The notes below the pieces were generated by a model. The model did no database searches and was not told the origin of the DNA. It saw nothing but the letters and a program-made list of their open reading frames with translations. This document shows positions 19,276 to 41,515 of a DNA stretch of 49,170 nucleotides, piece after piece. The stretch is from Streptacidiphilus pinicola. Its GTDB lineage: Bacteria; Actinomycetota; Actinomycetes; Streptomycetales; Streptomycetaceae. Numbering within the stretch: position 1 is the first letter of the stretch; each line of letters begins with the position of its first letter. A program made the translations under genes and the position numbers. The stretch covers positions 1 to 49,170 of the forward strand of contig NZ_QKYN01000035.1 in NCBI RefSeq assembly GCF_003258295.1, read 5' to 3'.

Positions 19276-19400
19276 ACCGTGACCCCTCTTCCACGAAGCC
19301 TTGCGGAATTCCCGTGCATACTCCGCGATCAAGGCATCCGGGGCGGGTACTGGACGCGTCCCTCGGGGGTCTTTCAGGGGGCGCGGCGGTGACCGGATAC

Positions 19401-22996: not shown

Positions 22997-23093
22997 CAAG
23001 CACGGCGGTCCCGGCGGAACCCCGCCGGGACCGGACCCGGCCGACCGAGCTCGACCACAACACGAAGCACGCGTGTACGGGGGCGTCTCGCTC

Positions 23094-23747
23094 ATGTCAG
23101 ATCAGTCATGCACGCGTTGCGGTGAGCCGGACCACGGCTGCCGCACGGAATCGGAGTACGAAAGACCGCCGCGACAGCGACCGCACGTGCCGTTGCCCCC
23201 GCCGGGGCGGCCCGGTGAGCCGTTGCCGTCTCCTGACGCACGGCTCGGCGCTCCGGTCGAGGCGGCCCAACTCGCCACGCTGCTGGCCGCGGTGGCGCAT
23301 CTCGGTGCCGCGGACCGGGCCTGCCCCGGCGCGCTGGGGCTGTACGTGGTGGCGAACCGGATCACCGGGCTGGCCTCCGGGATCTACCGCTACCGGCCGC
23401 GGACGAACGCACTGGCCCCGGTCGAGGCGGCCCAGTCCGCGCGGCGGCTCGCGAGCTGCGCCGCCGAGCCGGCTGCACTGCTCGCGGCGGACGCGGTGCT
23501 GGGCTTCGCGGCGGGTGCCGCACGGGGCGGTCCGCCACGGCATGCGCTGCCGCGCGCCGCCACGGACGGGCTCGGCCCGGTGAAGTCCGCGTACCGGGCG
23601 GTCCGGTCCGCGGGCGCACTGGGGCTGACGGGCACCGTGGTCGCCGGGTTCGTCGACGCCATCGGCGACCTGCTCGCGCTGCCCGCGGGCAATCCGTCCT
23701 GCGTCCTGGTCGCCCTGACCCGGACTCAGGCGCGGCTCCACCGTTGA
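23094..23747 (+). CDS. Degenerate SagB/nitroreductase-like protein
   Basis: Protein of about 217 aa. The central part (ALGLYVVANRITGLASGIYRYR) and the end (VVAGFVDAIGDLLALPAGNPSCVLVAL) match the pattern of SagB-type FMN oxidoreductases, but the N-terminal FMN-binding arginine region is missing or replaced by a Cys-rich start (SCTRCGEPDHGC) and a proline-rich linker. It may be a decayed or repurposed oxidoreductase. The start is uncertain: ATG 23094 is preferred, GTG 23073 or 22989 possible. It lies 97 nt downstream of fabI on the same strand and ends before a strong terminator. Confidence 0.55.
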   Translation: MSDQSCTRCGEPDHGCRTESEYERPPRQRPHVPLPPPGRPGEPLPSPDARLGAPVEAAQLATLLAAVAHLGAADRACPGALGLYVVANRITGLASGIYRYRPRTNALAPVEAAQSARRLASCAAEPAALLAADAVLGFAAGAARGGPPRHALPRAATDGLGPVKSAYRAVRSAGALGLTGTVVAGFVDAIGDLLALPAGNPSCVLVALTRTQARLHR

Positions 23748-24087: not shown

Positions 24088-27000
24088 GTGCGCGACATCG
24101 CGATCGTTGGAATGAGCTGCCGCTTCCCAGGGGCACGGAACCTGCAGGAGTACTGGCGTCTGCTGCTCGGCGGGCAGCGGCAGTTCCGCTCGGTCCCCGC
24201 GGAGCGCTGGGACCACGCGGAGTACTTCGACCCGACCGACAAGCGCGGCTCCAAGGCCTCCTACACCGACAAGATCGCGGTGATCGACGAGGTCGACCAG
24301 TTCGACGCCGCGCACTTCCGGATGTCGCCGCGCCGCGTGCAGAACATGGACCCGCAGCACCGACTGCTGCTCCAGGTCTCCCGCGAGGCCCTGCAGGACG
24401 CCGGCTGGGAGCGCCGCCCGTTCGACCGGGCCACGACCGGTGTCTTCTTCGGGCTGAGCAGCTCGGAGTACGCCGAGTACAGCCCCGACGTCAAGCAGAT
24501 CCAGCCGTTCACCGTGCCCGGTGTGCTGCTGAACATGGCCGCCGCCACCGTCAGCCAGTACTACGACCTCGGCGGGCCCAGCTTCACCGTCGACGCCGCG
24601 TGTTCCTCCAGCCTGGTGGCGCTCTACGAGGCGGTCACCCACCTGCGCGCCGGGCACTGCCGCGAGGCCGTGGTCGGCGGCGCCTACCTGGCGCTGGCGC
24701 CGAACGGCCTGGTCGGCTTCGCGAAGGTCGGCGCGCTGTCCCAGGCGGGGGTCTGCCGCCCGTTCGACCGGCGCGCGGACGGCTTCGTGCTCGGCGAGGG
24801 CATCGGCGCCGTCGTCCTGCGGCCGCTGGACGAGGCCCTCGCCGCCGGCGACCGGGTCTACGCCGTGGTGCGCGGCGTCGGCTCCTCCAACGACGGTGTC
24901 ACGGACGGTCCGATGACGCCGCGTCAGGAGGGACAGGAGGTCGCGCTGCGCCGGGCCTACGCCGACGCGGAGTGCACCATGGACTCCGTCGGCTTCATCG
25001 AGGCGCACGGCACCGCGACCGTCGTCGGCGACCGGACCGAGCTGGACGCCATCAAGGCGGTGCGGACCGCCGACCTGATGGGCAGACCGGACCGCGGCGC
25101 CTACCTCTCCTCCGTCAAGAGCCTGATCGGGCACGGCCTCAGCGCGGCCGGCATGGCCAGCGTGATCAAGGCCGCCCTGGTGCTGCACCACGGCACGGTC
25201 GTGCCGCAGCCGGAGACCGAGGTGGACCCGGCGGTCGGCATGGCCGAGGCGGGCCTGCGGATCGCCGACGCCCCTGTGCCGTGGCCCGCCGAGGACGCGC
25301 CGCGCCGCGTCGGGGTCAACGGCTTCGGGTTCGGCGGCACCAACGTCCACGTGGTGCTCCAGGACGCGCCGGACAACCCGGCCACCACGCCCGCCCCGGA
25401 CGAGCCCGAGCGCCCCGAGCTGTTCCTGCTGTCGGCCGGGACCCCGGCCCTGCTGGCCGACCACATCGGCGCGGTGCTCGACGAGCTCGCCACACAGCCC
25501 CACGCCACCGCACGCGAGTTGGCCTGGACGCTGGCCCAGCGCACCCCGCTGCCCGCCCGCCTGGCCGTCGTCGCGAGCGACCTCGCCGAGCTGCGCGAGA
25601 AACTGACGCAGGCTCAACAACAGCTGGCCGACGGCAGGCTGGGCGTGCTGGGCGACGCCGGGTTCGCGGGCAGGACGCCACTGCCGGCCAAGAAGCGCCA
25701 GGTCGCCTTCCTCTTCCCCGGCCAGGGCAGTCAGCGCCCCGGCATGCTGGGCGACCTGGTCGAACGCTTCGGGGCGCTGCGCGGACGGGCCGAGGCGCTG
25801 GACGCGGGTCTGCGGGAGCAGGCCGGGTTCTCCGCGCTCGACGCGCTCTACGGTCCGGAAGCCGCGAGCGACGCGGGCCGCGCCCGACTGACGGGCACCG
25901 ACGTCTGCCAGCCCGCGCTCGGCCTGCTCGGGCTGTCCATGGCCCGCCTGCTCGCGGAGTGCGGGGTGCGGGCCGACCTCACGCTCGGACACAGCGTGGG
26001 CGAGTTCCCGGCCGCGGCGATCGCCGGAGCGATGACCGACGAGGCCGCCCTGGGACTGCTCGCGACCCGGGGCCGCCGGATGCGGGACGCCGAGGCCGAG
26101 GTCCGCGGCGGGATGCTTGCGGTCCGCGGCGACGCCGAGCGCGTCGAGGCCCTGCTGCACGGCGTCGACGGGGCCTGGCCGAGCTGCTACAACCACCCCG
26201 GCCAGACCGTGGTGAGCGGCACCGAGGCCGGGCTCGCCGAGACCGGGCGGCGCTGCGCCGCCGAGGGCCTCCCGGCGGTGCGGCTGGAGGTGTCCAACGC
26301 CTTCCACTCCCCGCTGCTCGCCGGCGCGCGCGAGGGCATCGAGAGCGACCTCGCCGACGCACCGATCGGCGCGCCGGGGCTGACCTTCGTCTCCTCGGTG
26401 AGCGGCGCGGCCTGCGCCGCCCCGGAGCGGCTGCGGGTGCTGTGGGCCGAGCACGCGCTCGCCCCGGTCCGCTTCGCCGACGCCGCGAGAGCCGCGCACG
26501 ACGCGGACGCCCGGATCTTCGTGCAACTCGCGGGCGGCAGAGGCCTGCTGTCCACCGTCCGGCAGAACCTCCGCGAGGAGGAGGGGCTCCACTACGTCGC
26601 GCTGACCGGCGAGAAGCCGGACGACGCGCGCACCTTCCTCGCCGGGCTCGGCCAACTGGCCGTCCTCGGACTGCCCGTCGGCCTCACCCCACTGTTCGAG
26701 GGCACGCCCCGGCTGCTCTCACTGCCGCCGTCGCCGCTGCGCACCCGGCGCTACTGGGTCGACGCACAGAAGCCGCGGGACACCTCCGCCTTCCTGGCGC
26801 CCCGGCCGGTCCCGGCGGCGACGGCCGGCACGGCCGAAGCGACCGCCCCGGCCGAACCGCCCGCCATCGCCGCGAGGGCCGTGCTGCCCCAACCCCCCGT
26901 GAAGGAGCATCCCGTGAACGAGGTCGTGTCCCTGCTGCGCGAGCAGCTCGCGACGTTGCGCAGTCTCGGCGTCGCCGAACTCGCCGAGTTCGCCCCCGCG

Positions 27001-28617
27001 CCGACGACGGTGGTGACGGCGGAGGCCGTGGTGCGGACTCCGGCCGCGCTCCCCCCGGCGGCACGGCCCGCGCCCACCGCGACGGCGGGCGCCGCCGAGC
27101 GGCTTGCGGTGCGCGGCACGGTCGTCGGGCACATCTCCCGGATCAGCGCCTTCCCGGCCGACCAGCTGCACGACGACCACCTGGTGGTCCAGGAGCTCGG
27201 CTTCGACTCACTGATGCTGACCGAGCTGATGGCCTCGGTGCGCAACACCTGGCCGCACCTGGCCGAGCAGCTCGCGGGCGGAGTCATCGCGACCCGGCCG
27301 ACCATCCGTGAGATCGTCGACGCCGTCGCCGGCCTGCTCGGTGTCCCGGCGGCGGCGGCCGCACCGCAGGCCACCGCACCCGCCGTCCCCGACGAACCGG
27401 CCGACGCCGTCGCGCAGGAGCGCAGGATCGAGGACTTCCCCGAAGCGCTGGCGCTCGCGGCGCAGATCGACGAACCCGGCACCCGCAACCCGTACTTCCT
27501 GCTGCACGAGGGCACCGCGACCGACACCTCCCGGATCGAGGGCCGCGAGCTGGTCTGCTTCTCCAGCTACAACTACCTCGGCCTGTCCGGCCACCCGGCG
27601 ATCAAGCAGGCCGTCGGCGAGGCGCTGGACACCTACGGCAGCTCCGTCTCGGCCAGCCGCTTCCTCTCCGGCGACCGGCCGGTGCACCGGGAGCTGGAGG
27701 CCGAACTCTCCACGCTGCTGGGCACCGAGGACGCCATCGTCATGGTCAGCGGCCACGCGACCAACGTGTCGGTGATCGGGCACCTGCTCGGCGCGGAGGA
27801 CCTCGTCGTTCACGACGAACTCGCGCACGACAGCATCCTGCAGGGCTGCAAGCTCTCCGGCGCCCGGCGACTGCCGTTCCCGCACAACGACATGACCGCG
27901 CTCGACGAGCTGCTGACCCGGGCTCGGCCGCGCTACCGCCGCTGCCTGATCGTGGTCGAGGGCGTCTACAGCATGGACGGCGACCTGGTGGACCTGCCCA
28001 GGCTGATCGAGGTCAAGGAGAAGCACGGCGCGATCGTGCTGGTCGACGAGGCGCACAGCATCGGCACCATCGGCAAGAACGGCGGCGGCGTCGGCGACCA
28101 CTTCGGCGTGGACCGCTCCCGGATCGACCTGTGGGCCGGGACCCTGTCCAAGTCGCTGTCCAGCTGCGGCGGTTACGTCGGCGGTTCGGCGGACGTGGTG
28201 CGCTACCTCAAGTACAGCGTGCCGGGCTTCGTCTACAGCGTCGGCATGACGCCGCCGAACACCGCCGCCGCGCTGGCCGCGATCCGGGCGATGCGCGACG
28301 AGCCGGAGCGCCTGGAGCGGCTGCGCGGCAACGCGGAGCTGTTCCTCGCCGAGGCCCGCAAGGCCGGTCTGGACACCGGGCCGAGCTCCGACTCCCCCGT
28401 GGTGCCCTGCATCGTCGGCGACTCCGCGATGACGCTCAAGCTCGCCGAGGTGCTGTTCGACCGCGGCATCAGCGTCAACCCGATCATGTACCCGGCGGTA
28501 CCGGAGGCCGAGGCCCGGCTGCGCTTCTTCATCACCTCGGAGCACACCGAGAAGCAGATCCGCGCCTCCGTCGCCACCGTGGCCGAGGAACTCCGGCTGC
28601 TGCGCGCCGGCGCCTGA
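24088..28617 (+). CDS. Hybrid PKS / alpha-oxoamine synthase (KS-AT-ACP-AOS)
   Basis: Megasynthase of 1509 aa. KS (about 1-430): active Cys172 in VDAACSSSL, first His in EAHGTAT, second in VKSLIGHG (Leu where Asn is usual). AT (about 540-890): Ser636 in GHSVGE and NAFHS, suggesting malonyl-CoA. ACP: Ser1041 in LGFDSLML. C-terminal PLP-dependent AOS (about 1110-1505): SSYNYLGLSGHP, DEAHSIG and PLP Lys1355 in GTLSKSLSS. It should extend an acyl chain by one malonate, then couple it decarboxylatively to an amino acid, as RedL does with glycine to form an alkyl-pyrrolinone precursor. There is no ketoreductase or thioesterase. The GTG at 24088 follows GAGG. An internal ribosome site plus GTG occurs at 26902-26916. 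Confidence 0.92.
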   Translation: MRDIAIVGMSCRFPGARNLQEYWRLLLGGQRQFRSVPAERWDHAEYFDPTDKRGSKASYTDKIAVIDEVDQFDAAHFRMSPRRVQNMDPQHRLLLQVSREALQDAGWERRPFDRATTGVFFGLSSSEYAEYSPDVKQIQPFTVPGVLLNMAAATVSQYYDLGGPSFTVDAACSSSLVALYEAVTHLRAGHCREAVVGGAYLALAPNGLVGFAKVGALSQAGVCRPFDRRADGFVLGEGIGAVVLRPLDEALAAGDRVYAVVRGVGSSNDGVTDGPMTPRQEGQEVALRRAYADAECTMDSVGFIEAHGTATVVGDRTELDAIKAVRTADLMGRPDRGAYLSSVKSLIGHGLSAAGMASVIKAALVLHHGTVVPQPETEVDPAVGMAEAGLRIADAPVPWPAEDAPRRVGVNGFGFGGTNVHVVLQDAPDNPATTPAPDEPERPELFLLSAGTPALLADHIGAVLDELATQPHATARELAWTLAQRTPLPARLAVVASDLAELREKLTQAQQQLADGRLGVLGDAGFAGRTPLPAKKRQVAFLFPGQGSQRPGMLGDLVERFGALRGRAEALDAGLREQAGFSALDALYGPEAASDAGRARLTGTDVCQPALGLLGLSMARLLAECGVRADLTLGHSVGEFPAAAIAGAMTDEAALGLLATRGRRMRDAEAEVRGGMLAVRGDAERVEALLHGVDGAWPSCYNHPGQTVVSGTEAGLAETGRRCAAEGLPAVRLEVSNAFHSPLLAGAREGIESDLADAPIGAPGLTFVSSVSGAACAAPERLRVLWAEHALAPVRFADAARAAHDADARIFVQLAGGRGLLSTVRQNLREEEGLHYVALTGEKPDDARTFLAGLGQLAVLGLPVGLTPLFEGTPRLLSLPPSPLRTRRYWVDAQKPRDTSAFLAPRPVPAATAGTAEATAPAEPPAIAARAVLPQPPVKEHPVNEVVSLLREQLATLRSLGVAELAEFAPAPTTVVTAEAVVRTPAALPPAARPAPTATAGAAERLAVRGTVVGHISRISAFPADQLHDDHLVVQELGFDSLMLTELMASVRNTWPHLAEQLAGGVIATRPTIREIVDAVAGLLGVPAAAAAPQATAPAVPDEPADAVAQERRIEDFPEALALAAQIDEPGTRNPYFLLHEGTATDTSRIEGRELVCFSSYNYLGLSGHPAIKQAVGEALDTYGSSVSASRFLSGDRPVHRELEAELSTLLGTEDAIVMVSGHATNVSVIGHLLGAEDLVVHDELAHDSILQGCKLSGARRLPFPHNDMTALDELLTRARPRYRRCLIVVEGVYSMDGDLVDLPRLIEVKEKHGAIVLVDEAHSIGTIGKNGGGVGDHFGVDRSRIDLWAGTLSKSLSSCGGYVGGSADVVRYLKYSVPGFVYSVGMTPPNTAAALAAIRAMRDEPERLERLRGNAELFLAEARKAGLDTGPSSDSPVVPCIVGDSAMTLKLAEVLFDRGISVNPIMYPAVPEAEARLRFFITSEHTEKQIRASVATVAEELRLLRAGA
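26902..26916 (+). promoter_or_regulatory. Internal ribosome site and GTG inside the PKS gene
   Basis: AAGGAG (26902-26907) is followed after 6 nt by an in-frame GTG (26914), at codon 943, in the linker between AT and ACP. Initiation here would yield a separate 567-residue ACP-AOS protein beginning VNEVVSLLREQLATL. The sequence is a textbook start signal; its use is inference. Confidence 0.5.
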
Positions 28618-28673
28618 CACCACCCCGAACCCCCGCCGCTCGACCGTCCGCTCGACCCCAGGAGCTGGTTCCC

Positions 28674-30920
28674 GTGTCCTCCATGCCCACGTCGCCGGTC
28701 GCCGCCCCGGCGCCCCCCGGCCCAGGTACGGCCGAGCACGCCCGCCGGCTGCCGCTCGCGCTGCGCCGGCCGCGCTGGGTGCTCTGGATCAGCGTGCTGT
28801 TCCTGGTGCTGACCGGGGTGCTGGCGGGCGGCGCGTCGGCGGCGATGAAGAACGGCGGGTTCGACGACCCGGCGTCGGACTCCTCGCAGGCGACGCAGCT
28901 GCTCGCGGCCAAGTTCCCGGCGAGCCAGGCGAACCTGGTGCTGCTGGTGCAGAGCCACGCGGGCGTGGACGCGCCGCAGGCCACCGCGACCGGCAAGCGG
29001 CTGCTGGCCACGCTGACGTCGACACCCGGGGTCCACGTCGTGGACAGCTACTTCGCCACGGGCGACCCCGGGCTGCGCTCCCGCGACGGGCACAGCGCGC
29101 TGACCACGGTGAACGTCAGCGGCGACGAGGACGCGGTGGCGCGCACCACGACGAAGCTGCACGACGAGCTGGCCCGGGCCTCCGGGCCGGTCGCCGTGCG
29201 GTTCGGCGGCATCGCGCAGGTCACCAACGACCTGACCGACCAGACCAACAACGACCTGGCGACCTCCGAGGGCATCGCGCTGCCGCTGACGCTGATCCTG
29301 CTGTTCTTCGTCTTCCGGGGGGTGGTCGCCGCGCTGCTGCCGCTGTTCATCGGGGTCCTGTCGATCTCCGGCTCGCTGGCGGTCCTCTACGGGCTGGGCC
29401 AGGCCACCTCGGTGTCGGTGTTCGCGGTCAACCTGACCACCGCGCTGGGCCTGGGACTGGCCGTCGACTACAGCCTGCTGATCGTCTCCCGCTACCGGGA
29501 GGAACGCGCGGGCGGCCTGGAGGCGCGCCCGGCCCTGGCGGCCACGCTGCGGACGGCCGGACGCACGGTGGTCTTCAGCGGAGCGATCGTTGCCGCGGTG
29601 CTCAGCACGCTGGTGGTGTTCAAACAGTACTTCCTCAGCTCCTTCGCCTACGCCGGGGTCGCGGTCGTCGCCATCACGGTGCTGTGCGCGCTGCTGCCGC
29701 TGCCCGCCGCGCTGCTGCTGGTGGGCGACCGGATCGACTCCCGCGCCGTCCGGCGCAAGCGCGCCGCCGGGACGGCGGCCGAGGCGAAGGCTCCGCAGGA
29801 CCGGCTCTGGGGCCGGATCGCCGGTGGCGTGATGCGCCGCCCGCTGGTGGCCGGGCTGCTGGTGGCCGGGTTGCTGGTGGTGGTGGCCGCGCCGCTGACG
29901 GGAGCCCAGTTCGGCGTCCCGGACGAGCGGGCGCTGCCCAAGGGCACCGAGAGCCGGGTGGTGGCCGACCTCGCCCGCACCCAGTTCAGCGGCGACGACG
30001 AGAACGCCCTGTCGCTGGTCGGCCAGGACTGGCCGGACGGCTCGCCCACCGATCTGGCCGCCTACGCGCAGCGCCTGTCCGCCCTGCCGCACGTGACCTC
30101 GGTGACCAGCGCCGCCGGACGGTTCCAGCAGGGCCGGCCGGTCGGCGGGCCGGTCCCCGGCCTCACCGCGGGCGCGGCGACGGTGCTGCAGGTCGCCGAC
30201 GACGTGGTGCCCTACTCCCCCGCGGGCGAGCAGCTGGTGACGAGCGTGCGGGCGGTCCCCGTGCCCGGCGGGCACCGGGTGTACGTCGGCGGCCTCGCCG
30301 CCCAGTACGTGGACGTGACGGCGTCGATCGGCGCGCGACTGCCGCTCGCGATCGGGCTGGCCACACTGCTCACCCTGGTGCTGCTGAGCCTGGCGACCGG
30401 CAGTGTGCTGCTGCCGCTCAAGGCGGTGCTGTTCAACGCGCTCGGCCTGGGCGCGGTGCTCGGCGCGATGATCTGGATCTTCCAGGACGGGCACCTGGCC
30501 GGCCTGCTCGACGTCACCCCCGCGCCGATCGCGGTCACCATGCCGGTCCTGCTGCTCTGCATCGCCTACGCGCTCTCGATGGACTACGAGATGTTCGTGC
30601 TCTCGCGGATCAAGGAGCGCTACACGAAGTCCGGCGACCCGATCGGCGCGGTGCGCGAGGGGCTCGGCGGCTCCGGCCCGATCATCACCGCGGCGGCGGC
30701 GATCCTGGCCGTCTCCTTCTTCTCGACGGCGATCTCCGGGGTGTCGCTGGCCAAGCTCTTCGGCATCGGCACCGGGCTCGCGGTGATCCTCGACGCGGTG
30801 CTGGTGCGCGGCGTGCTGGTGCCCGCCTTCCTCAAGATCTTCGGTGCCGCCGCCTGGTGGGCGCCGGCCCCGATGAAGCGCCTCACCGGCCGGATATCCG
30901 GCGCCGTGGGCGAGCACTGA
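28674..30920 (+). CDS. MMPL/RND-family lipid exporter
   Basis: Large membrane transporter of 748 aa. One N-terminal segment (WVLWISVLFLVLTGVL) precedes an extracellular domain, and two clusters of membrane helices each carry an MMPL-type Asp-Tyr pair: ALGLGLAVDYSLLIVSRYREE and ALSMDYEMFVLSRIKE. Proteins of this family export lipids and lipid-like metabolites using proton motive force. The GTG at 28674 has GGAG nine bases upstream. It lies 56 nt after the megasynthase, suggesting export of a lipophilic product. Confidence 0.88.
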   Translation: MSSMPTSPVAAPAPPGPGTAEHARRLPLALRRPRWVLWISVLFLVLTGVLAGGASAAMKNGGFDDPASDSSQATQLLAAKFPASQANLVLLVQSHAGVDAPQATATGKRLLATLTSTPGVHVVDSYFATGDPGLRSRDGHSALTTVNVSGDEDAVARTTTKLHDELARASGPVAVRFGGIAQVTNDLTDQTNNDLATSEGIALPLTLILLFFVFRGVVAALLPLFIGVLSISGSLAVLYGLGQATSVSVFAVNLTTALGLGLAVDYSLLIVSRYREERAGGLEARPALAATLRTAGRTVVFSGAIVAAVLSTLVVFKQYFLSSFAYAGVAVVAITVLCALLPLPAALLLVGDRIDSRAVRRKRAAGTAAEAKAPQDRLWGRIAGGVMRRPLVAGLLVAGLLVVVAAPLTGAQFGVPDERALPKGTESRVVADLARTQFSGDDENALSLVGQDWPDGSPTDLAAYAQRLSALPHVTSVTSAAGRFQQGRPVGGPVPGLTAGAATVLQVADDVVPYSPAGEQLVTSVRAVPVPGGHRVYVGGLAAQYVDVTASIGARLPLAIGLATLLTLVLLSLATGSVLLPLKAVLFNALGLGAVLGAMIWIFQDGHLAGLLDVTPAPIAVTMPVLLLCIAYALSMDYEMFVLSRIKERYTKSGDPIGAVREGLGGSGPIITAAAAILAVSFFSTAISGVSLAKLFGIGTGLAVILDAVLVRGVLVPAFLKIFGAAAWWAPAPMKRLTGRISGAVGEH

Positions 30921-30952
30921 CACGGCCTCACAACGACGACTGAGGAGAGATC

Positions 30953-33604: not shown

Positions 33605-33610
33605 GAGCTG

Positions 33611-35386
33611 ATGGCGGAGACCACCTACCCCAGTCCGTGGCACGCCGTGGTGGACGCGCTCGTCCACCACGGGGTCGACACGGTGTTCGGTCTGCCCGGT
33701 GACGACCTCGGCGCGCTGCACGCGCTGGAGGACGCGCCGGTGCGGATGCTGCTCTGCCGTGACCAGCGCAGCGCGCTGTTCCTGGCCACCGGCCACGCGC
33801 TGCAGTCCGGGCGCACCGCCGTCTGCGTCGTCGGCAAGGGCCCGGCCGTGGCCAACGCGGTCACCGGGCTGCTGGAGGCGCACACCTCCGGCGTGCCGCT
33901 GGTCGTGCTGGCGGGCGGCACCGCGACCAAGCGCCGCGACTCCGGCGCCTTCCAGGAGGTCGACCAACTCGCCCTGGTCCGCCCGCTGGTGAAGTGGGCC
34001 GCGCGGATCGACCACCCGGACCGGCTGGTTCCGGCGCTGGACAAGGCGTTCCTGCTCGCCGCGTCGGGCGCGCCCGGCCCCGTCTACGTCGAGCTGCCGG
34101 ACGACCTGCTGGACCTGGAGATCGTCCGCACCCGCCCGTGGGCGGACGCCCCGGAGGTCGCGACCGCGGTCACCGCGGACGGCGTCGACTCGCGGGCCCT
34201 GGCGCTGGTCCGGGCCGCGCGGCGACCGGTGCTGCTGGTCGGCGGCGGCATGCGCGGCCGTAACGGGGAGCGCCGCATCGAGGCCCTCGCGGACCGGCTC
34301 GGCGCGGCGGTCTTCGCCACCGCCTCCGGGCGCGGCGTCGTCGACGAGACGCACCCGCACTTCGCCGGCCTGGCCGGTCTGTACTCCCCGGCCGAGCTGG
34401 CGCCGGTCTGGTCCGAGGCCGACCTGCTGATCACGCTCGGCAGCCGGCTGGAGGAGACCGCGACCTTCAACGGCTTCGTCGGCCCCGGGGTACCGGTGCT
34501 GCAGGTCAACCTCGACCCGGCCGGGCTGTCCACGGAGTTCCCGGGCCTCGGCCTGCTGGGCGAGGGCGCGGCGGTCGTCGCGCACTGGCTGCGCGAGCTC
34601 GGCCCCCACCCCACGGAGGCCGAGGCTGACGCCACCTGGCCGGACACCGTGACCGAGTGCCGCGCCGCCGCCCACGCCGCCGTCGCCGCCCGGCTGGCCG
34701 AGATGGCCGCGGGCGACACCCTGCACGTCGCGGAGGTCCTCGCCGCGCTGGACCGGCTCGCGCCCGCCGACCGGATCCTGGTGCAGGAGAACGGCCTGCA
34801 GGACATGTGGTCCTACTTCTTCCCGCACTGGACCGTCGGCGCCGAGGCGGGCTCGGTGGTCCCCTCCGAGCAGACCACGCTGGGCTTCGGCACCGCCGCC
34901 GCGGGCGGCGTCAAGCTCGCCGCCGGGGACCGGCCGGTGATCGCCTTCGTCGGCGACGGCGCGTTCGCGATGGTCGCGAACGACATCGCGACGCTGGCCC
35001 GCGAGGGCGTCGGCGTCACCTACGTGGTGCTGCGCAACAGCGGCTACGGCTGGCTGCAGTGCCAACTCGACCAACACGGCGCCGAGTCGACGCGCTTCGC
35101 CTTCTTGGGCGAGGAGATGGGGAGCACCCTCCCGGTCCACCCCGCCGCCTGGCACGCGGTGGTGCGCGACAAGTCCGCGCTGGCCGACCTGCTCGGCGAG
35201 GCGCTGCTGAACAGCTCCAAGGGCCGCGTCGCCGTCCTCGAAATCCCGGTGACCATCGCCGACGCCCCGCCCGGGATCACCGAGCTCGACGGCGACTTCC
35301 CCGGCGCCGCCACCGACTCCGCCCCGAACCCCGCCTCCAAGAACGTCAGCAAGAACGAAGAGGAGAGACCCACTGATGAGCAGTGA
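33611..35386 (+). CDS. Thiamine-diphosphate-dependent decarboxylase/carboligase
   Basis: ThDP enzyme of 591 aa with the three-domain layout of the acetolactate synthase / phosphonopyruvate decarboxylase group. The N-terminal pyrimidine domain starts WHAVVDALVHHGVDTVFGLPGD; the cofactor motif is VGDGAFAMVANDIATL ending about 25 residues on in RNSGYG. The usual Glu that activates thiamine (RHEQ in relatives) appears as LLCRDQRS, apparently Asp, by hand alignment. It starts 6 nt after the ligase-ALDH gene and overlaps the KS gene by 11 nt. It could decarboxylate a 2-oxo acid or join it to an aldehyde as an acyloin. Substrate unknown. Confidence 0.83.
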   Translation: MAETTYPSPWHAVVDALVHHGVDTVFGLPGDDLGALHALEDAPVRMLLCRDQRSALFLATGHALQSGRTAVCVVGKGPAVANAVTGLLEAHTSGVPLVVLAGGTATKRRDSGAFQEVDQLALVRPLVKWAARIDHPDRLVPALDKAFLLAASGAPGPVYVELPDDLLDLEIVRTRPWADAPEVATAVTADGVDSRALALVRAARRPVLLVGGGMRGRNGERRIEALADRLGAAVFATASGRGVVDETHPHFAGLAGLYSPAELAPVWSEADLLITLGSRLEETATFNGFVGPGVPVLQVNLDPAGLSTEFPGLGLLGEGAAVVAHWLRELGPHPTEAEADATWPDTVTECRAAAHAAVAARLAEMAAGDTLHVAEVLAALDRLAPADRILVQENGLQDMWSYFFPHWTVGAEAGSVVPSEQTTLGFGTAAAGGVKLAAGDRPVIAFVGDGAFAMVANDIATLAREGVGVTYVVLRNSGYGWLQCQLDQHGAESTRFAFLGEEMGSTLPVHPAAWHAVVRDKSALADLLGEALLNSSKGRVAVLEIPVTIADAPPGITELDGDFPGAATDSAPNPASKNVSKNEEERPTDEQ

Positions 35387-36632
35387 GCACGCACCGCGCC
35401 GCCGGGTGGTCATCACCGGCTGCGGGGTCATCTCGCCGATCGGCCTGAGCTCCGCGGCGTTCTGGGACTCGCTGCTCGCGGGCCGCAGCGGCATCGCCCG
35501 GATCGAGGACTTCGACGTCTCCGACCTGCCGACCCAGATCGCGGCCCAGGTCAAGGGCTTCGACCCGGAGCAGTACATGCCGCGCAAGGTGTGGCGGCGG
35601 ATCGACCCGTTCGCGCAGTACGCGCTGGCCGCCGCCGTCGAGGCGGTCGACATGGCCAAGATCGAGATCGACGAGGAGCTGGCGCCGCGGGTCGGCGTGC
35701 AGATCGGCTCCGGCTACGGCCCCAGCACGATCCAGTCCCAGGTGACCCTCGGCCTGCAGGAGAAGGGCGCGCGCAGCATCGGCCCGTTCACCTCGGCGGC
35801 CTCGGCCATCGACAACGCGGCGGGCGAGATCGCGATCCGCTTCGGCGCCAAGGGCCCCTCCGGCGCGATCAGCACCGCCTGCGCCAGCGGCACCTCCGCG
35901 ATCGGCGAGGCGATGCGCTGGATCCAGTACGGCGCCTGCGACGTGGTGCTGGCCGGCGGCGCGGACCAGTCGGTGACCCGCTCGGACATCGCCTCGGCCT
36001 GCTCGGCGCGCGCGCTGTCGCGCCGCAACGACGACCCGGAGCACGCCTGCCGCCCGTTCGACAACGAGCGCGACGGCTTCATCATGGCCTCCGGCGCCGG
36101 CGTGCTGGTGCTGGAGGAGGCGGAGCGGGCGATGCGCCGCGGCGCGCCGATCCTCGCCGAACTGGTCGGCTACGGGGCGAGCACCGACGCCTACCACCCC
36201 ACCGCCCCGCACCCGGAGGGCGCCGGCGCCCAGCAGGCGATGCGCGGCGCGCTCACGGACGCCCGGATCGACGCGTCCGAGGTGGACTACATCAACGCCC
36301 ACGGCACCAGCACCAAGCTGAACGACCGGATCGAGACCCTGGCGATCCGTCAGGTCCTGGGCGCACACGCGCTGCGGGTGCCGATCAGCTCCACCAAGTC
36401 GATGACCGGCCACATGATCGGCGCGGCCGGCGCGGTCGAGGCCATCGTGGCCCTGCACACGATCCGCGACGGCGTCGTCCCACCGACCGTCAACTGCTTC
36501 GACCCGGAGGACACCGAGGTCAACTACGTGCCCCACACCGCGCAGGAGCACAAGGTCGACGTCGCGATGAGCAACTCCTTCGGCTTCGCCGGCCACAACG
36601 CCGTCGCGATCCTGCGCGCGTGGAAGCCGTGA
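35376..36632 (+). CDS. fabF: 3-oxoacyl-ACP synthase II (FabF-like KS)
   Basis: Discrete condensing enzyme of 418 aa. The Cys-His-His triad is complete: Cys169 in STACASGTS, His in NAHGTST and His in KSMTGHMIGAAGA, with GFAGHNAVAIL at the end (GFGGHNA in most relatives). It extends acyl-ACP chains with malonyl units. The ATG at 35376 overlaps the ThDP gene by 11 nt, and an ACP follows after 56 nt. With this ACP, the hotdog protein and the FabG/FabI/desaturase set nearby, it could build the acyl starter for the megasynthase, as RedR and RedQ do in prodiginine clusters. Confidence 0.9.
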   Translation: MSSEHAPRRRVVITGCGVISPIGLSSAAFWDSLLAGRSGIARIEDFDVSDLPTQIAAQVKGFDPEQYMPRKVWRRIDPFAQYALAAAVEAVDMAKIEIDEELAPRVGVQIGSGYGPSTIQSQVTLGLQEKGARSIGPFTSAASAIDNAAGEIAIRFGAKGPSGAISTACASGTSAIGEAMRWIQYGACDVVLAGGADQSVTRSDIASACSARALSRRNDDPEHACRPFDNERDGFIMASGAGVLVLEEAERAMRRGAPILAELVGYGASTDAYHPTAPHPEGAGAQQAMRGALTDARIDASEVDYINAHGTSTKLNDRIETLAIRQVLGAHALRVPISSTKSMTGHMIGAAGAVEAIVALHTIRDGVVPPTVNCFDPEDTEVNYVPHTAQEHKVDVAMSNSFGFAGHNAVAILRAWKP

Positions 36633-36688
36633 CCCCCGCTCTTTCCGAAGCCAGCCGAAAGACACACACCCAACCGAAGGGAACCGCC

Positions 36689-36940
36689 ATGAACGACGAA
36701 GAGATCCGCGAGGGCCTGGCCGCCATCCTCCAGGAGGTCGCCGGTACCGACCCGGCCGAGGTCGAGATGGACAAGTCCTTTGTCAACGACCTCGACGTCG
36801 ACTCGCTGCTGATGGTCGAGGTCGTCGTGGCCGCCGAGGAGCGGTTCGAGGTGAGCATCTCCGAGGACGACCTCAAGGAGGGCAGCACCGTCGGCGACCT
36901 GGTCCGCAGCATCCAGGGCGTGCTCGCCGCCGCGGTCTGA
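36689..36940 (+). CDS. Acyl carrier protein
   Basis: Free-standing ACP of 83 aa. The phosphopantetheine attachment site is Ser39 in LDVDSLLMVEVV, followed by the acidic recognition helix. The ATG at 36689 is preceded by GAAGGGA. Its position directly after the KS gene indicates a dedicated type II carrier protein for the cluster. No phosphopantetheinyl transferase is encoded in the window, so activation must come from elsewhere in the genome. Confidence 0.92.
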   Translation: MNDEEIREGLAAILQEVAGTDPAEVEMDKSFVNDLDVDSLLMVEVVVAAEERFEVSISEDDLKEGSTVGDLVRSIQGVLAAAV

Positions 36941-36968
36941 CCCGGACCGGTGTGTGGAAGGAACTGTG

Positions 36969-37775
36969 GTGAACGCAGCAGGGCACAACCCCTTCGCGCC
37001 CGCCTCGGCCGAGGTCGCGCGCTCGTATCACGGATTTCTCGACAACCGCCTGGTCAAGCTGGCGCCCGAGGCGGCGCCCGCGGATCCGGAGGCGGAGGTC
37101 GCGCACGAGTCGTTCCGCGCCATGGTGATGGACGACCCCTACCCCTGCGTGGTCGGCCGGGGCCTGCTGCGCCGCGGCGACTACCGGTTCGGCGCCTACC
37201 CGGAACTCGGCACGCCCGCGAGCGCGCGGGCGGTGGCGGCGGACCTGTGGCAGTTCATCCAGGACTTCCCGATCCGGCAGGAGACCTTCGCCTCCTTCGT
37301 CGCCTGCTACGCCGGTCCCGACTGCGCGGACGAGCGGCAGTTCGAGGAACTGCTTTGGCAGCAGCTGCAGTTGCTGCACGACTTGGACCGCGAGCACCAC
37401 CACTGGAACCCGATCGTCGGCGCCGACCCCAACACCAAGGGCTTCTCCTTCAGCTTCGCCGGGCGGCCGTTCTTCATCGTCGGCATGCACCCGGCGTCCT
37501 CCCGCCTCGCGCGGCGGCCGGGCCGGCCGACGATGGTGTTCAACGCGCACGAGCAGTTCAACATCCTGCGCGAGAACGGGCTGATGCCCCGCATCACGCA
37601 GACCATCCGCACCCGCGACCGCAAGCTGCAGGGCTACGTCAACCCGGCGCTGGAGTTCTTCGACGGCGACCACCCGGAGACGGTGATGTACTCGGGCCGT
37701 GTCCCCGACGACAGTTGGACGTGCCCGGTCCACATCGCCGCCCGCACGGCGGTCGCCGAGGGGACGGAGCGATGA
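36969..37775 (+). CDS. YqcI/YcgG-family protein, candidate haem-dependent N-hydroxylase
   Basis: Protein of 268 aa in the YqcI/YcgG family, recognised from DDPYPCVVGRGLLRRGDYRFG, DREHHHWNPIVGADPNTKGF, the His-rich FIVGMHPASSRLARR and the closing EQFNILRENGLMPRI. A characterised relative, GntA of guanitoxin biosynthesis, is a haem-dependent N-hydroxylase acting on a guanidine-bearing amino acid; most members are uncharacterised. Several conserved His residues could bind haem. The GTG at 36969 is spaced six bases from GGAAGGA; GTG 36966 and 36954 are alternatives. It overlaps the MaoC gene by 4 nt. N-hydroxylation of the cluster's amino-acid-derived nitrogen is inference. Confidence 0.78.
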   Translation: MNAAGHNPFAPASAEVARSYHGFLDNRLVKLAPEAAPADPEAEVAHESFRAMVMDDPYPCVVGRGLLRRGDYRFGAYPELGTPASARAVAADLWQFIQDFPIRQETFASFVACYAGPDCADERQFEELLWQQLQLLHDLDREHHHWNPIVGADPNTKGFSFSFAGRPFFIVGMHPASSRLARRPGRPTMVFNAHEQFNILRENGLMPRITQTIRTRDRKLQGYVNPALEFFDGDHPETVMYSGRVPDDSWTCPVHIAARTAVAEGTER

Positions 37776-38227
37776 GACGGCCCGCGGTCCTGGACGCGGT
37801 CGGCCGGGTCTACCCGCCCACGGAGCCCTACGAGATCGGCCGGGAGCACATCCGCGCCTTCGCCCGCGCCATCGGCGACGACTCGCCGATCTACCGCGAC
37901 GCCGCGATGGCACGGGCGTTGGGCCACGCCGACGTGCTCGCGCCGCCGACCTTCCCCGTGGTCTTCACCCAGCAGGCCGCCGAACAGGTCACCGGCGACC
38001 CGGAGTTGGGCATCGACTTCGCCCGCGTGGTGCACAGCGGCCAGCGCTTCGTCTACCAGCGGCCGATACTCGCGGGTGACCGGCTCTCCTGCGTGGTGCT
38101 GATCGAGGAGGCCAAGTCCCTGGCCGGCAACCTGTCGCTGACCCTGCGTACCGAGGTGCTGGACGCCACGGGCGCCACGGTGCTGACGGAGTGGTCCACC
38201 CTGGTCGTCCGCGCGGACGACACGTGA
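37772..38227 (+). CDS. MaoC-like hotdog protein (HadA/FAS1-dehydratase type)
   Basis: Hotdog-fold protein of 151 aa resembling the HadA/HadC subunits and FAS1-type dehydratase domain: PYEIGREHIRAFARAIGDDSPIYRD, APPTFPVVF, and RVVHSGQRFVYQRPILAGDRL. Catalytic MaoC/HadB enzymes carry an Asp-x4-His motif (as in DWNPIH); here the position reads DDSPIY, with Tyr for His, as in the non-catalytic partner subunits. A true HadB-like partner is not encoded nearby, so it may pair with a housekeeping one or have another role. ATG overlapping the previous stop (ATGA); its own stop overlaps the MFS start (GTGA). Confidence 0.82.
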   Translation: MRRPAVLDAVGRVYPPTEPYEIGREHIRAFARAIGDDSPIYRDAAMARALGHADVLAPPTFPVVFTQQAAEQVTGDPELGIDFARVVHSGQRFVYQRPILAGDRLSCVVLIEEAKSLAGNLSLTLRTEVLDATGATVLTEWSTLVVRADDT

Positions 38228-39765
38228 ACCGGCCCGCGACAGACCGCCGTTGGGCGACGCTGGCCGTCTGCTGCCTGGCCGCGCTGCTGCTGGCGATCGA
38301 CGCCACGGTGGTCACGTTGGCCGTCCCGGCGCTGACCCGGGCGCTGCGGCCGTCGGCCAACCAGATCCTGTGGATCGCCGACGTCTACGGCTTCGTGCTC
38401 GGCGGGCTGCTGGTGACCATGGGCAACCTGGGCGACCGGATCGGCCGCAGGCGCCTGCTGCTGCTCGGCGTGGCCCTCTTCGGTCTCGCCTCCGCCGCGA
38501 CGGCCTTCGCGCCGAGCCCCGCGCTGCTGATCGCCGCCCGCGCGGCGCTGGGGGCGGCCGGGGCCACCATCATGCCGTCGACGCTGTCGATCCTGCGCGG
38601 CGTGTTCACCGACCCCCGCGAACGGACCTGGGCGATCAGCCTGTGGAGCAGCACCTCGGTGGCGGGCTTCGCCCTCGGACCGGTCCTCGGCGGACTGCTG
38701 CTCGGTCACTTCTGGTGGGGCTCGGTCTTCCTGGTCAACGTCCCGGTCTGCGCCCTGGTGCTGGCGGCCGGCCTGCTGGTGCTGCCCGAGTCCCGCGCCC
38801 CCCAACCGGGACGGCTGGACGCGCCGAGCGCGGCACTGTCGGTGGTCGGCATGGTGACGGCCGTCTACGCCGTCAAGGAGGCCGCCCGCAGTGGCCCGCT
38901 GCACCCCGGTGTCGCGGTCACGGCGCTGCTCGGGATCGGCGCCCTCACCGCGTTCGTGCGGCGGCAGCGGCGACTGGCCGAGCCGCTGATCGACCTGCGG
39001 CTGTTCCGGCGCCGCGCGTACGGCGTGTCGGTGGCCGCGGCACTGGTCGCCATGTTCGTGACGGCCGCGCTGTCGCTGCTCTTCGCCCAGTACTTCCAAC
39101 TCGTGCTGGGCTGGTCGCAGTTGCGTTCCGGACTGGCCGGGCTGCCGGGCGCGCTGACGGCGGTGCTGGGCGGGGGCGCGGCGGCGCCCGCGGTCGCGGC
39201 GTGGGGCCGTCGCCGGGTCGTCCCCCTCGGCCTGGCGCTGATGGGGCTGGGCTGCCTGCTCTACCTGCCGGTGGGCACGGCGGCCGACTACCCGCTGGTG
39301 CTGCTGCCGATGGCCGTCTTCGGCGCGGGCGCCGGGCTGAGCGTCGCGGTCACCAACCACACCGTGGTCGAGGCCTTTCCGCCGGACCGCGCGGGGGCGG
39401 CCGCCGCGGTGTCCGAGACCGCCTTCGAGGTCGGCGCCGCGCTCGGCATCGCGTTGATCGGCACCCTGCAGGCCGCCGTCTACCGGGCCCGGCTCACCCT
39501 GCCCGCCGGGCTGACGGGCGACCAGGCCGCCCGGCTGCGCGAGTCGTTGGGCGACGCCCTGACGGGATCCACATCCACCGCGCTCGCGGCCGCGCGGCGG
39601 TCCTTCGTCGCCGGCGTCCACATCGCCACGCTCACCTGCGCCGCCGTGGCCCTGGCGGCGGCCGCGGCCGCACTGCTCGTACTGCGCGCCCGGCCCCGCA
39701 CCCGCACCGGCGGACCGACCGAGTTCGACCCAGACCAGGAGGTCATGACCAGTGGTGCACGGTAA
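38224..39765 (+). CDS. DHA2-family MFS efflux transporter of the cluster
   Basis: Drug:proton antiporter of 513 aa with about 14 membrane helices. It shows the first-segment motif IDATVVTLAVPALTRAL and the loop motif GNLGDRIGRRR. The GTG start overlaps the hotdog gene (GTGA) and the 3' end overlaps the arginyl-tRNA synthetase gene by 14 nt, so it is firmly within the operon. It probably exports the product or an intermediate and so contributes to self-protection, alongside the MMPL pump. Confidence 0.88.
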   Translation: MNRPATDRRWATLAVCCLAALLLAIDATVVTLAVPALTRALRPSANQILWIADVYGFVLGGLLVTMGNLGDRIGRRRLLLLGVALFGLASAATAFAPSPALLIAARAALGAAGATIMPSTLSILRGVFTDPRERTWAISLWSSTSVAGFALGPVLGGLLLGHFWWGSVFLVNVPVCALVLAAGLLVLPESRAPQPGRLDAPSAALSVVGMVTAVYAVKEAARSGPLHPGVAVTALLGIGALTAFVRRQRRLAEPLIDLRLFRRRAYGVSVAAALVAMFVTAALSLLFAQYFQLVLGWSQLRSGLAGLPGALTAVLGGGAAAPAVAAWGRRRVVPLGLALMGLGCLLYLPVGTAADYPLVLLPMAVFGAGAGLSVAVTNHTVVEAFPPDRAGAAAAVSETAFEVGAALGIALIGTLQAAVYRARLTLPAGLTGDQAARLRESLGDALTGSTSTALAAARRSFVAGVHIATLTCAAVALAAAAAALLVLRARPRTRTGGPTEFDPDQEVMTSGAR

Positions 39766-41515
39766 CCTGAGCGTCGAGCTGGGACAGCGGGTGGCCACGG
39801 CGGTGCAGGCCGCGCTGGATCTCCCGATCACCCCGGCCGAGGCGGTGATCCGGCCGTCCCGGCAGCCCGGCGTGGACTACCAGAGCAACGTCGCGATGGG
39901 CCTGGCCGCCCGCGCCGGCCGCGACCCACGCGAGGTCGCCGCGGACATCGTGGCCCACCTGGACGCCGCCGACCTGGTCGAGCCGCCACGGATCGCCCGC
40001 GCCGGGTTCATCGACCTGGTGCTCACCCCCGCCTGCCTCGCCCAGCGGGCGCGCGCCCTGGCGGCCGACGAGCGGCTCGGCTTCCCGCAGGTCGAGGGAT
40101 CCCGACGGATCGCCATCGACTACTCCAGCCCCAACGTCGCCAAGGAGATGCACGTCGGCCACCTGCGCTCGACGGTGCTCGGCGACGCGATCAGCAGGCT
40201 GCTGCGGTTCGCCGGACACGAGGTCGTACCGCACAACCACATCGGCGACTGGGGCACGCCCTTCGGCATGCTCATCGAGCACCTGGTGGACGAGGGCCTG
40301 ACCGGCCCCGCGGCGGCCTCCTCGCGGGGCGGCCTCTCACTCGGCGACCTCAACGGCTTCTACCAGGAGGCCCGCAAGAAGTTCGACACCGAGCCGGACT
40401 TCGCCAACCGCGCGCGCCGCCGCGTGGTGCTGCTGCAGGGCGGCCACCAGGAGACGCGGGAGCTGTGGCAGCAGCTCGTCGAGGAGTCGGCCACGCACTT
40501 CGAGCAGGTCTACCAGCTGCTAGGGATCCAGCTCACCCCCGCCGACGTCTACGGCGAGAGCTTCTACAACCCGTTCCTGGCCGACGTCGTCAAGCAACTC
40601 AGCGCCAAGCGGCTGGTCAAGGTCAGCGGCGGCGCGATCTGCGCCTTCCCCGAGGGCTTCACCAACCGCGAGGGCGAGCCGCTGGCCGTCATCGTCCGCA
40701 AGAAGGGCGGCGGCTACGGCTACGCCTCCACCGATCTGGCCACCGCCCGGTACTGGATCGAGGACCGCGGCGCCGACGACCTGCTCTACGTCGTCGGCAG
40801 CCCGCAGGCACAGCACTTCGCCGTCGTCTTCGCGGTGCTGCGCGAGGCCGGCTGGCTCACCGACGACCACCACGCCGAGCACATCGGCTTCGGCTCCATC
40901 CTCGGCTCCGACGGCCGGACCATCCGCACCCGCGCGGGCGGCTCGGTCAAGCTCGTCGACCTGCTGGTCGAGGCGATCGACCGGGCCGCGACCATCGCCG
41001 AACAGCGGGGCGAGCTGCCGGAGGAGCAGTGGGGGACGGTGGCGCGCGCGGTGGGCATCGGCGCGGTCAAGTACGCGGACCTCGCCCACGACCGCCGCAA
41101 GGACTACGTCTTCGACTGGGACCGGATGCTGGCGATGACCGGCAACACCGCCGCCTACCTCCAGTACGCCCACTGCCGGATCCGCTCGGTGCTGCGCCGC
41201 GCGGGCGTGACCGAGGAAGCGGCCACCGAGGCCCCGGTGCTGCTCGCGGACCCGCGCGAGCGGGAGCTGCTGGTCCGGATCCTGCGCTTCCCCGAGGCCT
41301 GCGCGGCGGCGACCCGGGCGTACGCGCCGCACAAGCTCTGCACCTACCTCTACGAGACGGCGAGCGCCTTCTCCTCCTTCTATGCGACCTGCCCCGTCCT
41401 GACCGCGGCCACGCCCGAGCTGCGCGACTCGCGGCTGGCCCTGGCCGCGCTCACCTCGCGCGTGCTGACGCTCGGCCTCTCGCTGCTCGGCATCGAGTCC
41501 CCGGAGCGGATCTAG
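39752..41515 (+). CDS. argS: Arginyl-tRNA synthetase in the biosynthetic operon
   Basis: Class I synthetase of 587 aa charging tRNA-Arg. The N-terminal Add1 domain (about 1-100) precedes YSSPNVAKEMHVGHLRST (HIGH signature) and HNHIGDWGTPFGMLIEHL. The KMSKS region is the degenerate type usual in this family (GSDGRTIRTRAGGSVKLVDLL), and the C-terminal DALR domain ends at LGIESPERI. It looks fully functional. The GTG at 39752 is nine bases after AGGAGG and lies inside the end of the MFS gene, giving translational coupling. As the last gene of a biosynthetic operon it is probably a second ArgRS acting as a resistant target copy or as a supplier of Arg-tRNA. Confidence 0.93.
   Translation: MVHGNLSVELGQRVATAVQAALDLPITPAEAVIRPSRQPGVDYQSNVAMGLAARAGRDPREVAADIVAHLDAADLVEPPRIARAGFIDLVLTPACLAQRARALAADERLGFPQVEGSRRIAIDYSSPNVAKEMHVGHLRSTVLGDAISRLLRFAGHEVVPHNHIGDWGTPFGMLIEHLVDEGLTGPAAASSRGGLSLGDLNGFYQEARKKFDTEPDFANRARRRVVLLQGGHQETRELWQQLVEESATHFEQVYQLLGIQLTPADVYGESFYNPFLADVVKQLSAKRLVKVSGGAICAFPEGFTNREGEPLAVIVRKKGGGYGYASTDLATARYWIEDRGADDLLYVVGSPQAQHFAVVFAVLREAGWLTDDHHAEHIGFGSILGSDGRTIRTRAGGSVKLVDLLVEAIDRAATIAEQRGELPEEQWGTVARAVGIGAVKYADLAHDRRKDYVFDWDRMLAMTGNTAAYLQYAHCRIRSVLRRAGVTEEAATEAPVLLADPRERELLVRILRFPEACAAATRAYAPHKLCTYLYETASAFSSFYATCPVLTAATPELRDSRLALAALTSRVLTLGLSLLGIESPERI

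Follow-up and report, generated by a model that had tools for sequence, protein, structure and literature searches.

What does an actinobacterium make with a polyketide synthase (PKS) that ends in an alpha-oxoamine synthase (AOS) and is encoded beside a putative guanidine hydroxylase, and why does the same operon close with an arginyl-tRNA synthetase (ArgRS)? The question is raised by a gene cluster of Streptacidiphilus pinicola, found in a stretch of 49,170 nucleotides (contig NZ_QKYN01000035.1, positions 1 to 49,170; the window), part of an 8.43-Mb genome. The gene content of the cluster, its catalytic motifs, its conserved linkage and the presence of an extra argS gene inside the operon are direct observations. 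Our preferred answer is tentative, and slightly more doubtful than probable: that the cluster serves to produce and export an amphiphilic amino-ketone lipid, sphingoid-like and bearing an N-hydroxylated guanidine, and that the extra ArgRS protects the producer.

The product, the starter unit, each chemical step, the entry point of the guanidine and the role of the ArgRS are inferred. A fused ligase and aldehyde dehydrogenase (ALDH)-like reductase, together with a thiamine diphosphate (ThDP) enzyme, would prepare an acyl starter, for which arginine or some other basic amino acid is a possible source. FabF, an acyl carrier protein (ACP), HadA, FabI and a desaturase would build this starter into an unsaturated acyl-ACP, and the PKS module of ketosynthase (KS), acyltransferase (AT) and ACP would add malonate. 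The AOS would then free the chain by condensing it, with decarboxylation, to a small amino acid, for which serine is the best candidate. The guanidine would be hydroxylated by a YqcI heme protein, and the product would be exported by an MMPL protein and a major facilitator superfamily (MFS) protein. The extra ArgRS of Streptacidiphilus and Kitasatospora would be a spare copy of the target enzyme, shielding the producer. A preliminary description of this DNA had proposed a lipophilic aminoketone, possibly N-hydroxylated. The aminoketone-type AOS-PKS, the N-hydroxylase and the exporters agree with this, but the guanidine specificity of the YqcI/YcgG family had been left unused. A pyrrolinone, also proposed there, is no more than a possibility.

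Conservation and extent of the cluster

The ligase-ALDH gene was used as the query against 394 Streptomycetaceae genomes, sampled from the larger group. Four of these – the window genome, Streptacidiphilus anmyonensis, Kitasatospora MAA4 and a genome referred to here as G170 – have a ligase-ALDH that is 84-100% identical. The gene order is the same in all four copies, the sole exception being the absence of the MFS gene from G170, so the genes are not scattered in close relatives, a pattern that the preliminary description had named as evidence against a cluster. Eight further genomes of the 394 encode a fused ligase-ALDH at 43-51% identity, in clusters of different kinds.

The preliminary description had the unit begin at the PKS gene. 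It is wider than the PKS-to-ArgRS span, and includes a FabI-like gene and a divergent desaturase gene that travel with it. The FabI-like gene is 91-94% identical and in the same place in the three other copies. The desaturase has matches in S. anmyonensis (69% over 71% of the frame, the stretch being cut there) and in G170 (83% over 74% of the frame), and is represented in Kitasatospora MAA4 by two short fragments only. The genes of the unit and one possible addition are as follows.

20766-22058 (-): fatty-acid desaturase (FA_desaturase_2; Pfam 231.8 bits), divergent from the operon, start at 22058 or 21665
22232-22996 (+): FabI/InhA-like enoyl-ACP reductase of the short-chain dehydrogenase/reductase (SDR) family (Pfam adh_short_C2, 241.8 bits)
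22989-23747 (+): open frame without assigned function; coding may start near 23292; Pfam gave no match at E 0.1
24088-28617 (+): PKS with KS-AT-ACP-AOS domains, 1509 aa, from domain matches; no cis ketoreductase (KR), dehydratase (DH) or enoylreductase (ER)
28674-30920 (+): MMPL exporter (Pfam MMPL 234.6 bits, scored on an over-long frame), start at 28674 (GTG) or 28683 (ATG)
30953-33604 (+): AMP-ligase fused to an ALDH-like reductase, from domain matches and active-site alignment
33611-35386 (+): ThDP enzyme of the acetolactate-synthase fold, with Gln for the catalytic Glu, from domain matches and alignment
35376-36632 (+): FabF-type ketosynthase (TIGR03150, 548 bits, exceeding the cut-off of 493.75)
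36689-36940 (+): ACP (Pfam 53 bits; NF002147 94.5 bits, cut-off 84)
36954-37775 (+): YqcI/YcgG heme protein, probable guanidine N-hydroxylase (Pfam 171.2 bits; GntA model)
37772-38227 (+): HadA-like hotdog dehydratase (Pfam FAS1_DH_region 102.7 bits; HadA model 121.5, below its cut-off of 180)
38191-39765 (+): MFS exporter (Pfam 168.6 bits), start at 38191 or 38224
39752-41515 (+): extra ArgRS, catalytic motifs intact (TIGR00456, 482.6 bits)
18574-19332 (-): SDR ketoreductase, possibly a trans-acting KR, membership uncertain; a 79% identical gene lies beside the desaturase in G170

The ten genes from 24088 to 41515 had been described before as co-directional and with such domains; all are on the + strand, and domain matches confirmed every one. 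Their near-touching or overlapping ends were likewise found as described: intergenic gaps are at most 56 bases, and there are overlaps of 11 bases (ThDP enzyme/FabF), 4 bases (YqcI/HadA) and 14 bases (MFS/ArgRS). A codon-position filter kept seven of the ten as intact frames, with a third-position GC of 0.94-0.98. The MMPL frame was over-long under this filter, with a third-position GC of 0.89; the same protein gave 351 bits with the MmpL3 model, under the cut-off of that model. The ACP and HadA genes were not in the list of the filter, and are supported by Pfam matches and by relatives. As the PKS has no cis reduction, reduction would need to be supplied by FabI and HadA, possibly helped by the SDR at 18574-19332; the stretches from two of the relatives (L001 and L002) end before the position equivalent to that gene. 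The right boundary is likely, not certain, to be at the ArgRS, since only 1.8-4 kb of sequence past it was read in the three relatives. Within this span no gene of the window was matched except, in S. anmyonensis, the GNAT gene at 46640-47227.

The core genes also occur together outside the Streptomycetaceae. Planobispora takensis and Streptosporangium sp. KLBMP 9127, which we take to be Streptosporangiaceae, encode a KS-AT-ACP-AOS protein 59% identical to that of the window over residues 1-1505, along with ligase, ALDH, ThDP enzyme, FabF, ACP, desaturase, FabI (75% identical) and YqcI. These versions were pieced together from stretches L133 and L134 with L021 and L020, in which no match to the MMPL, HadA, MFS or ArgRS of the window was found. 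A different MFS gene is close by in L021. Beside the PKS-AOS cluster, L021 (2478-14530) and L020 encode cytochrome bd subunits I and II, a flavin halogenase-like protein, a carboxyltransferase and a second ligase; the cytochrome bd genes are perhaps a respiratory resistance gene.

The extra arginyl-tRNA synthetase

An argS gene is inside the operon in all four Streptomycetaceae copies, and in neither the Streptosporangium nor the Planobispora version. The total number of argS genes was counted over the family cut-off in the cluster genomes and in 21 genomes chosen by us for comparison (11 + 10). Each of the four cluster genomes has three argS genes. Among the comparison genomes, 15 have one, five have two and one (G186) has three, so that a total of three is unusual but also occurs without the cluster.

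The four cluster ArgRS form one clade with a support of 1.000, the other three being 76-81% identical to the window copy. Accessory and Streptomyces-type copies are 42-53% identical to the members of this clade, and the housekeeping type of Kitasatospora and Streptacidiphilus is 26-28% identical to them. ArgRS of the Streptomycetaceae fall into two deeply different types, approximately 26% identical – one is the common copy in Kitasatospora and Streptacidiphilus, and the other is the only type in most Streptomyces-type genomes tested. The Planobispora and Streptosporangium genomes each yielded a single argS, on a different contig from the cluster. In the tree it falls on the same side as the cluster copies, as does the only argS in most of the Streptomyces-type genomes tested.

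By its motifs the cluster ArgRS appears catalytically intact. It retains HVGH and 49 columns that are invariant over an alignment of 27 ArgRS, and solved ArgRS align to the window protein over its full length, with up to 544 bits. An extra, clade-specific ArgRS inside the operon points to self-protection, and the simplest reading would be that it is a spare, insensitive copy of the target. The Streptosporangiaceae versions without ArgRS would fit if the ArgRS type of those hosts were insensitive from the start, though this is guesswork. Residue 319, a Gly in all four cluster copies and an Asp in the remaining 23 sequences, was considered as a mark of resistance and dropped, as the solved ArgRS 6ao8 also has Gly.

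Two other accounts of this gene were weighed. It may have no relation to the product, an accessory argS having landed at the end of the operon by chance. Versions of the cluster without ArgRS do exist, and extra argS genes without the cluster are common (the five genomes with two and G186 with three, among the 21). Chance is nevertheless somewhat unlikely to explain a gene that holds the same place in four of four copies, even after the loss of the MFS gene in G170, that overlaps the MFS gene by 14 bases in the window, and whose four copies make up a single fully supported clade. In the second account, the lipid receives arginine by a tRNA-dependent transfer and the ArgRS provides the arginyl-tRNA for it, much as a seryl-tRNA synthetase reportedly feeds such a transfer in valanimycin biosynthesis. 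Here too a synthetase is found within a biosynthetic operon, and YqcI suggests arginine-linked chemistry. This is very improbable: the Pfam matches of the unit include no recognised tRNA-dependent transferase, and the sole unassigned frame (22989-23747) has a counterpart in S. anmyonensis only, 67% over 65%, and none in the other two copies.

The YqcI/YcgG protein

The YqcI protein of the window has a full-length match to Pfam PF08892 (171.2 bits, covering positions 1-211 of a 211-position profile) and scores 241.4 bits with the GntA model, for which the cut-off is 145. In the available text of PMC12866846, the heme thiolate ligand of AglA is Cys44. Cys65 of the window protein (position counted by hand on the alignment) aligns with it, and is invariant in six of six aligned sequences; AglA itself is a remote match (34.9 bits). 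The activity of the YqcI/YcgG family, in the accessible parts of PMC12866846 and of a study of chalkophomycin (PMC11177257), is the N-hydroxylation of the guanidine of arginine derivatives. Judged from these likenesses, the window protein is a probable guanidine N-hydroxylase.

Three other Streptomycetaceae genomes (G312, G189 and G387) combine YqcI with FabI and with the ligase-ALDH, ThDP and FabF genes, and neither AOS nor ArgRS was found in the stretches read. In G312, HadA and YqcI are a single protein of 415 aa with both Pfam domains. A frame of 373 aa in G387 matches it over 93%, and matches to both domains were obtained at that locus. The HadA-YqcI fusion suggests that the hydroxylase acts on the acyl chain, and the occurrence of YqcI without AOS in the three genomes likewise suggests that it is tied to acyl-chain assembly. 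The cluster of G312 (L103 14514-20000 and L088 1-17805, with related loci in G189 and G387) is of a different kind. In addition to the ligase-ALDH/ThDP/FabF/FabI genes and the fusion, it encodes a nonribosomal peptide synthetase, MbtH, a pair of PALP and ornithine-cyclodeaminase proteins, an AurF-type oxygenase, two ATP-grasp enzymes and an MFS exporter.

A further possibility is that the substrate of YqcI is not a guanidine and that no arginine-derived atoms are present in the product, which would be a sphingoid-like lipid or an amino-ketone lipid of another type; we consider this quite unlikely. The remoteness of AglA leaves some room for this, as does the occurrence of the ligase-ALDH and ThDP genes without YqcI; the available text of PMC12866846 counts only six characterised bacterial members of the family. 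Against it, the GntA cut-off is widely exceeded, the heme Cys is retained, and an ArgRS is in the same operon.

The AOS and its amino acid partner

The PKS has the expected motifs: Cys/His of the KS, GHSVG and AFHS in the AT, DSL in the ACP, and SK, with the pyridoxal phosphate lysine, in the AOS. The AT motifs are presumably of the malonyl type. The nearest solved structures to the AOS are serine palmitoyltransferases (262.2 bits), followed by an AONS/KBL enzyme (236.5). The AOS is 70.4% identical to that of a second PKS-AOS of Kitasatospora MAA4, 60.1% identical to that of a PKS-AOS on a plasmid of Streptomyces anthocyanicus, and 52.8% identical to a Pseudomonas plasmid AOS adjoining a 7.5-kb PKS. 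The first two both stand beside an MMPL gene, and within the 40 kb read around the MAA4 gene no YqcI or ligase-ALDH/ThDP genes were found. The motif YG(S/T)SVSA(S/A)R is common to all ten AOS of the alignment, including PKS-linked AOS without arginine-linked neighbours.

Because the AOS groups with PKS-linked enzymes that resemble serine palmitoyltransferase, serine is the likelier partner than arginine. In the portion of PMC12134224 available, PfSgaB, of the SgaAB pair, has a strong preference for serine over alanine and glycine. With serine as the partner, the guanidine would probably enter through the acyl chain.

The AOS might instead use arginine or N-hydroxyarginine, giving an arginyl ketone that mimics arginyl-adenylate, with ArgRS as the protected target. 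Arginine is reportedly used by the AOS of SxtA and by the ketomemicin enzyme. The AOS is also the only obvious amino-acid-incorporating enzyme in the unit, and a guanidine hydroxylase and an ArgRS are in the same operon. We regard this as distinctly improbable, given that the AOS motif is shared (10 of 10) with PKS-linked AOS that lack arginine-linked neighbours, one of them the 70.4% identical enzyme, and that YqcI accompanies the ligase-ALDH and ThDP genes where the AOS is absent.

Stand-alone pairs of KS-AT-ACP-AOS and MMPL are found in S. anthocyanicus (L131 9740-17182) and in Kitasatospora MAA4 (G396:C32:13398-20317). They are likely a simpler lipid-making unit. Their domain order and adjacent MMPL are as in the window, but no ligase-ALDH/ThDP genes, YqcI or ArgRS were found in the 33 kb and 40 kb read.

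A recurring ligase-ALDH/ThDP cassette

The ligase-ALDH, ThDP, FabF, ACP and FabI genes form a cassette found again in clusters of other types, some of them lipolanthine-like. Though the preliminary description had correctly listed ArgRS, ligase-ALDH and ThDP enzyme, it had missed both this recurrence and the status of the ArgRS as an extra, clade-specific copy. The cassette was compared in 51 stretches (29 genome contigs, 20 from Streptomycetaceae genomes, the window and G170). These were picked by a ligase-ALDH match and give no estimate of the frequency of the cassette; L030 and L031 were excluded, and L133 and L134, read later, are also not among them. By bit-score thresholds that we set, ALDH and ThDP enzyme are both present in 43 of the 51. 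Forty of these 43 also have the ligase, 27 FabF, 20 FabI, 18 ACP and 12 HadA; LanKC is found in 12, YqcI in seven, and AOS and ArgRS in four each.

Both enzymes of the pair have altered active sites. The catalytic residue of acetolactate synthase and of oxalyl-CoA decarboxylase, both ThDP enzymes, is a Glu. This is replaced by Gln in 20 of 20 sequences covering the site (an alignment of 21 from the first set of loci, one gapped there). The subfamily motif is D-Q-(R/S) where Glu is usual, in the window protein (33611-35386) and its relatives, again 20 of 20. A true 2-ketoarginine decarboxylase was considered for this enzyme and rejected: the score of 190 bits is far from the cut-off of 500 and below that of the acetolactate-synthase model (254.6). 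The ALDH retains its Cys and has Gly at the usual position of the Glu base in 17 of 17 rows. In acyl-thioester reductases, Cys is kept and Gly is found at the ALDH Glu position.

Short frames were scanned strictly for a class III lanthipeptide leader motif together with a Ser/Thr-Ser/Thr-Cys end. They were found in 13 of the 51 stretches, and in 10 of the 43 with ALDH and ThDP enzyme. In many of them the end is xSxxSxxC, spaced as in the core of nocaviogua. Nocaviogua is a lipolanthine whose acyl chain, according to the available text of PMC10435860, is a bismethylated guanidino fatty acid. The lipolanthine-like loci (L005, L008-L015, L017, L090, L097 and L098) have precursors, sometimes in tandem, ending in or near SxxSxxC, and most also have LanKC and a GNAT gene. 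A nocaviogua-type precursor end was found in two of 397 genomes, one with Cys for the second Ser, and looked like chance. In Firmicutes, locus L027 (408-15579), with similar loci in L019, L022, L024 and L025, encodes ligase, ALDH, ThDP enzyme, KASIII, ACP and a GNAT protein. These loci adjoin genes for a beta-eliminating lyase, PALP, a GHMP kinase and an L-amino-acid ligase, and possibly make acylated dipeptides.

Evidence for and against the proposed product

Beyond the conserved gene order, the YqcI and AOS likenesses and the ArgRS described above, two more observations favour the N-hydroxyguanidine amino-ketone lipid. The core genes are together also in Planobispora and Streptosporangium, and the lipolanthine-like loci hold the cassette while one published lipolanthine, in the part of PMC10435860 available, carries a guanidino fatty acid.

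Several observations weigh against it. No amidinotransferase or arginine transaminase domain is among the Pfam matches of the unit. YqcI was found in none of six lipolanthine-like genomes, in a set that held no positive control, so that a guanidine cannot be read from the cassette alone. The YqcI of the window shares only 35-36% identity with the YqcI proteins linked to the cassette in other lineages, and may be a separate recruitment. The best NCBIfam model for the AOS is bioF (355.8 bits versus 330.9 for serine palmitoyltransferase, both below cut-offs). Extra argS copies are found also in genomes without the cluster, G186 having three without PKS-AOS, and both Streptosporangiaceae versions are without ArgRS in the cluster.

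A more far-reaching proposal is unlikely in its entirety. It is that the cluster encodes a natural ArgRS-directed antibiotic (the N-hydroxyguanidine amino-ketone lipid), to which the cluster-type and Streptosporangiaceae ArgRS would be insensitive and the Kitasatospora/Streptacidiphilus housekeeping type sensitive, and that the ligase-ALDH and the Gln-type ThDP enzyme form a mobile starter-unit module of a new kind, also used by lipolanthine-like clusters.

Comparison with known systems

The cluster is conserved in actinobacteria and, provisionally, apparently undescribed. The preliminary description recognised no described cluster with this gene set, and none was found in the literature searched, subscription papers and MIBiG being outside its scope. 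The same search yielded no report of YqcI combined with an AOS, nor of ArgRS as a self-resistance gene in a biosynthetic cluster. PKS-AOS lipids, YqcI hydroxylases and resistance copies of synthetases are each already known; provisionally, it is their combination and the role of the ArgRS that were not found described.

The nearest parallel to the PKS-AOS is SgaAB of Pseudomonas fluorescens MYb115 (PMC12134224, as far as available), in which a type I PKS also feeds an AOS resembling serine palmitoyltransferase. SgaAB is a two-gene arrangement, with a large PKS and an AOS encoded on its own, whereas in the window the AOS is fused to a short KS-AT-ACP that has no reductive domains, in one protein of 1509 aa. 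The window PKS-AOS also stands beside the ligase-ALDH/ThDP/FabF/FabI/HadA set, YqcI and ArgRS.

AglA, GntA, DcsA, ChmN, AmbT and Mhr24 share their Pfam family with the window YqcI, which passes the GntA model and retains the heme Cys. The published pathways with these enzymes have arginine-type substrates, whereas the window gene is in a fatty-acyl/PKS operon and has relatives fused to a HadA domain. The lipolanthines (microvionin, nocavionin, goadvionin and nocaviogua) may be related through the cassette, which the lipolanthine-like loci hold. Unlike those loci, the window cluster has no GNAT acyltransferase, and no class III lanthipeptide precursor or LanKC was found within 18001-44000.

Clusters for mupirocin, indolmycin and other antibiotics are said to carry self-resistance copies of aminoacyl-tRNA synthetases, and an extra, divergent, motif-intact synthetase is likewise inside the window operon. 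No such cluster with an ArgRS is known to us, nor any natural ArgRS inhibitor with a resistance copy. If the ArgRS is indeed a protective copy, the locus would offer a chemical class acting against ArgRS and a gene with which to test resistance. Independently of the ArgRS, a probable guanidine N-hydroxylase is tied here to fatty-acyl and polyketide assembly, and a conserved ligase-ALDH and ThDP pair, the latter without the usual catalytic Glu, recurs in several kinds of lipid-bearing clusters.

Neighbouring genes

The window contains a second aminoacyl-tRNA synthetase gene at 16275-17795 (+), of the class I Trp/Tyr type (506 aa, Pfam 188.7 bits). It has no counterpart in the G170 stretch, which extends that far. 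Just right of the cluster, at 43247-44725 (+), is a gene for a family 47 glycosyl hydrolase (Pfam 313 bits).

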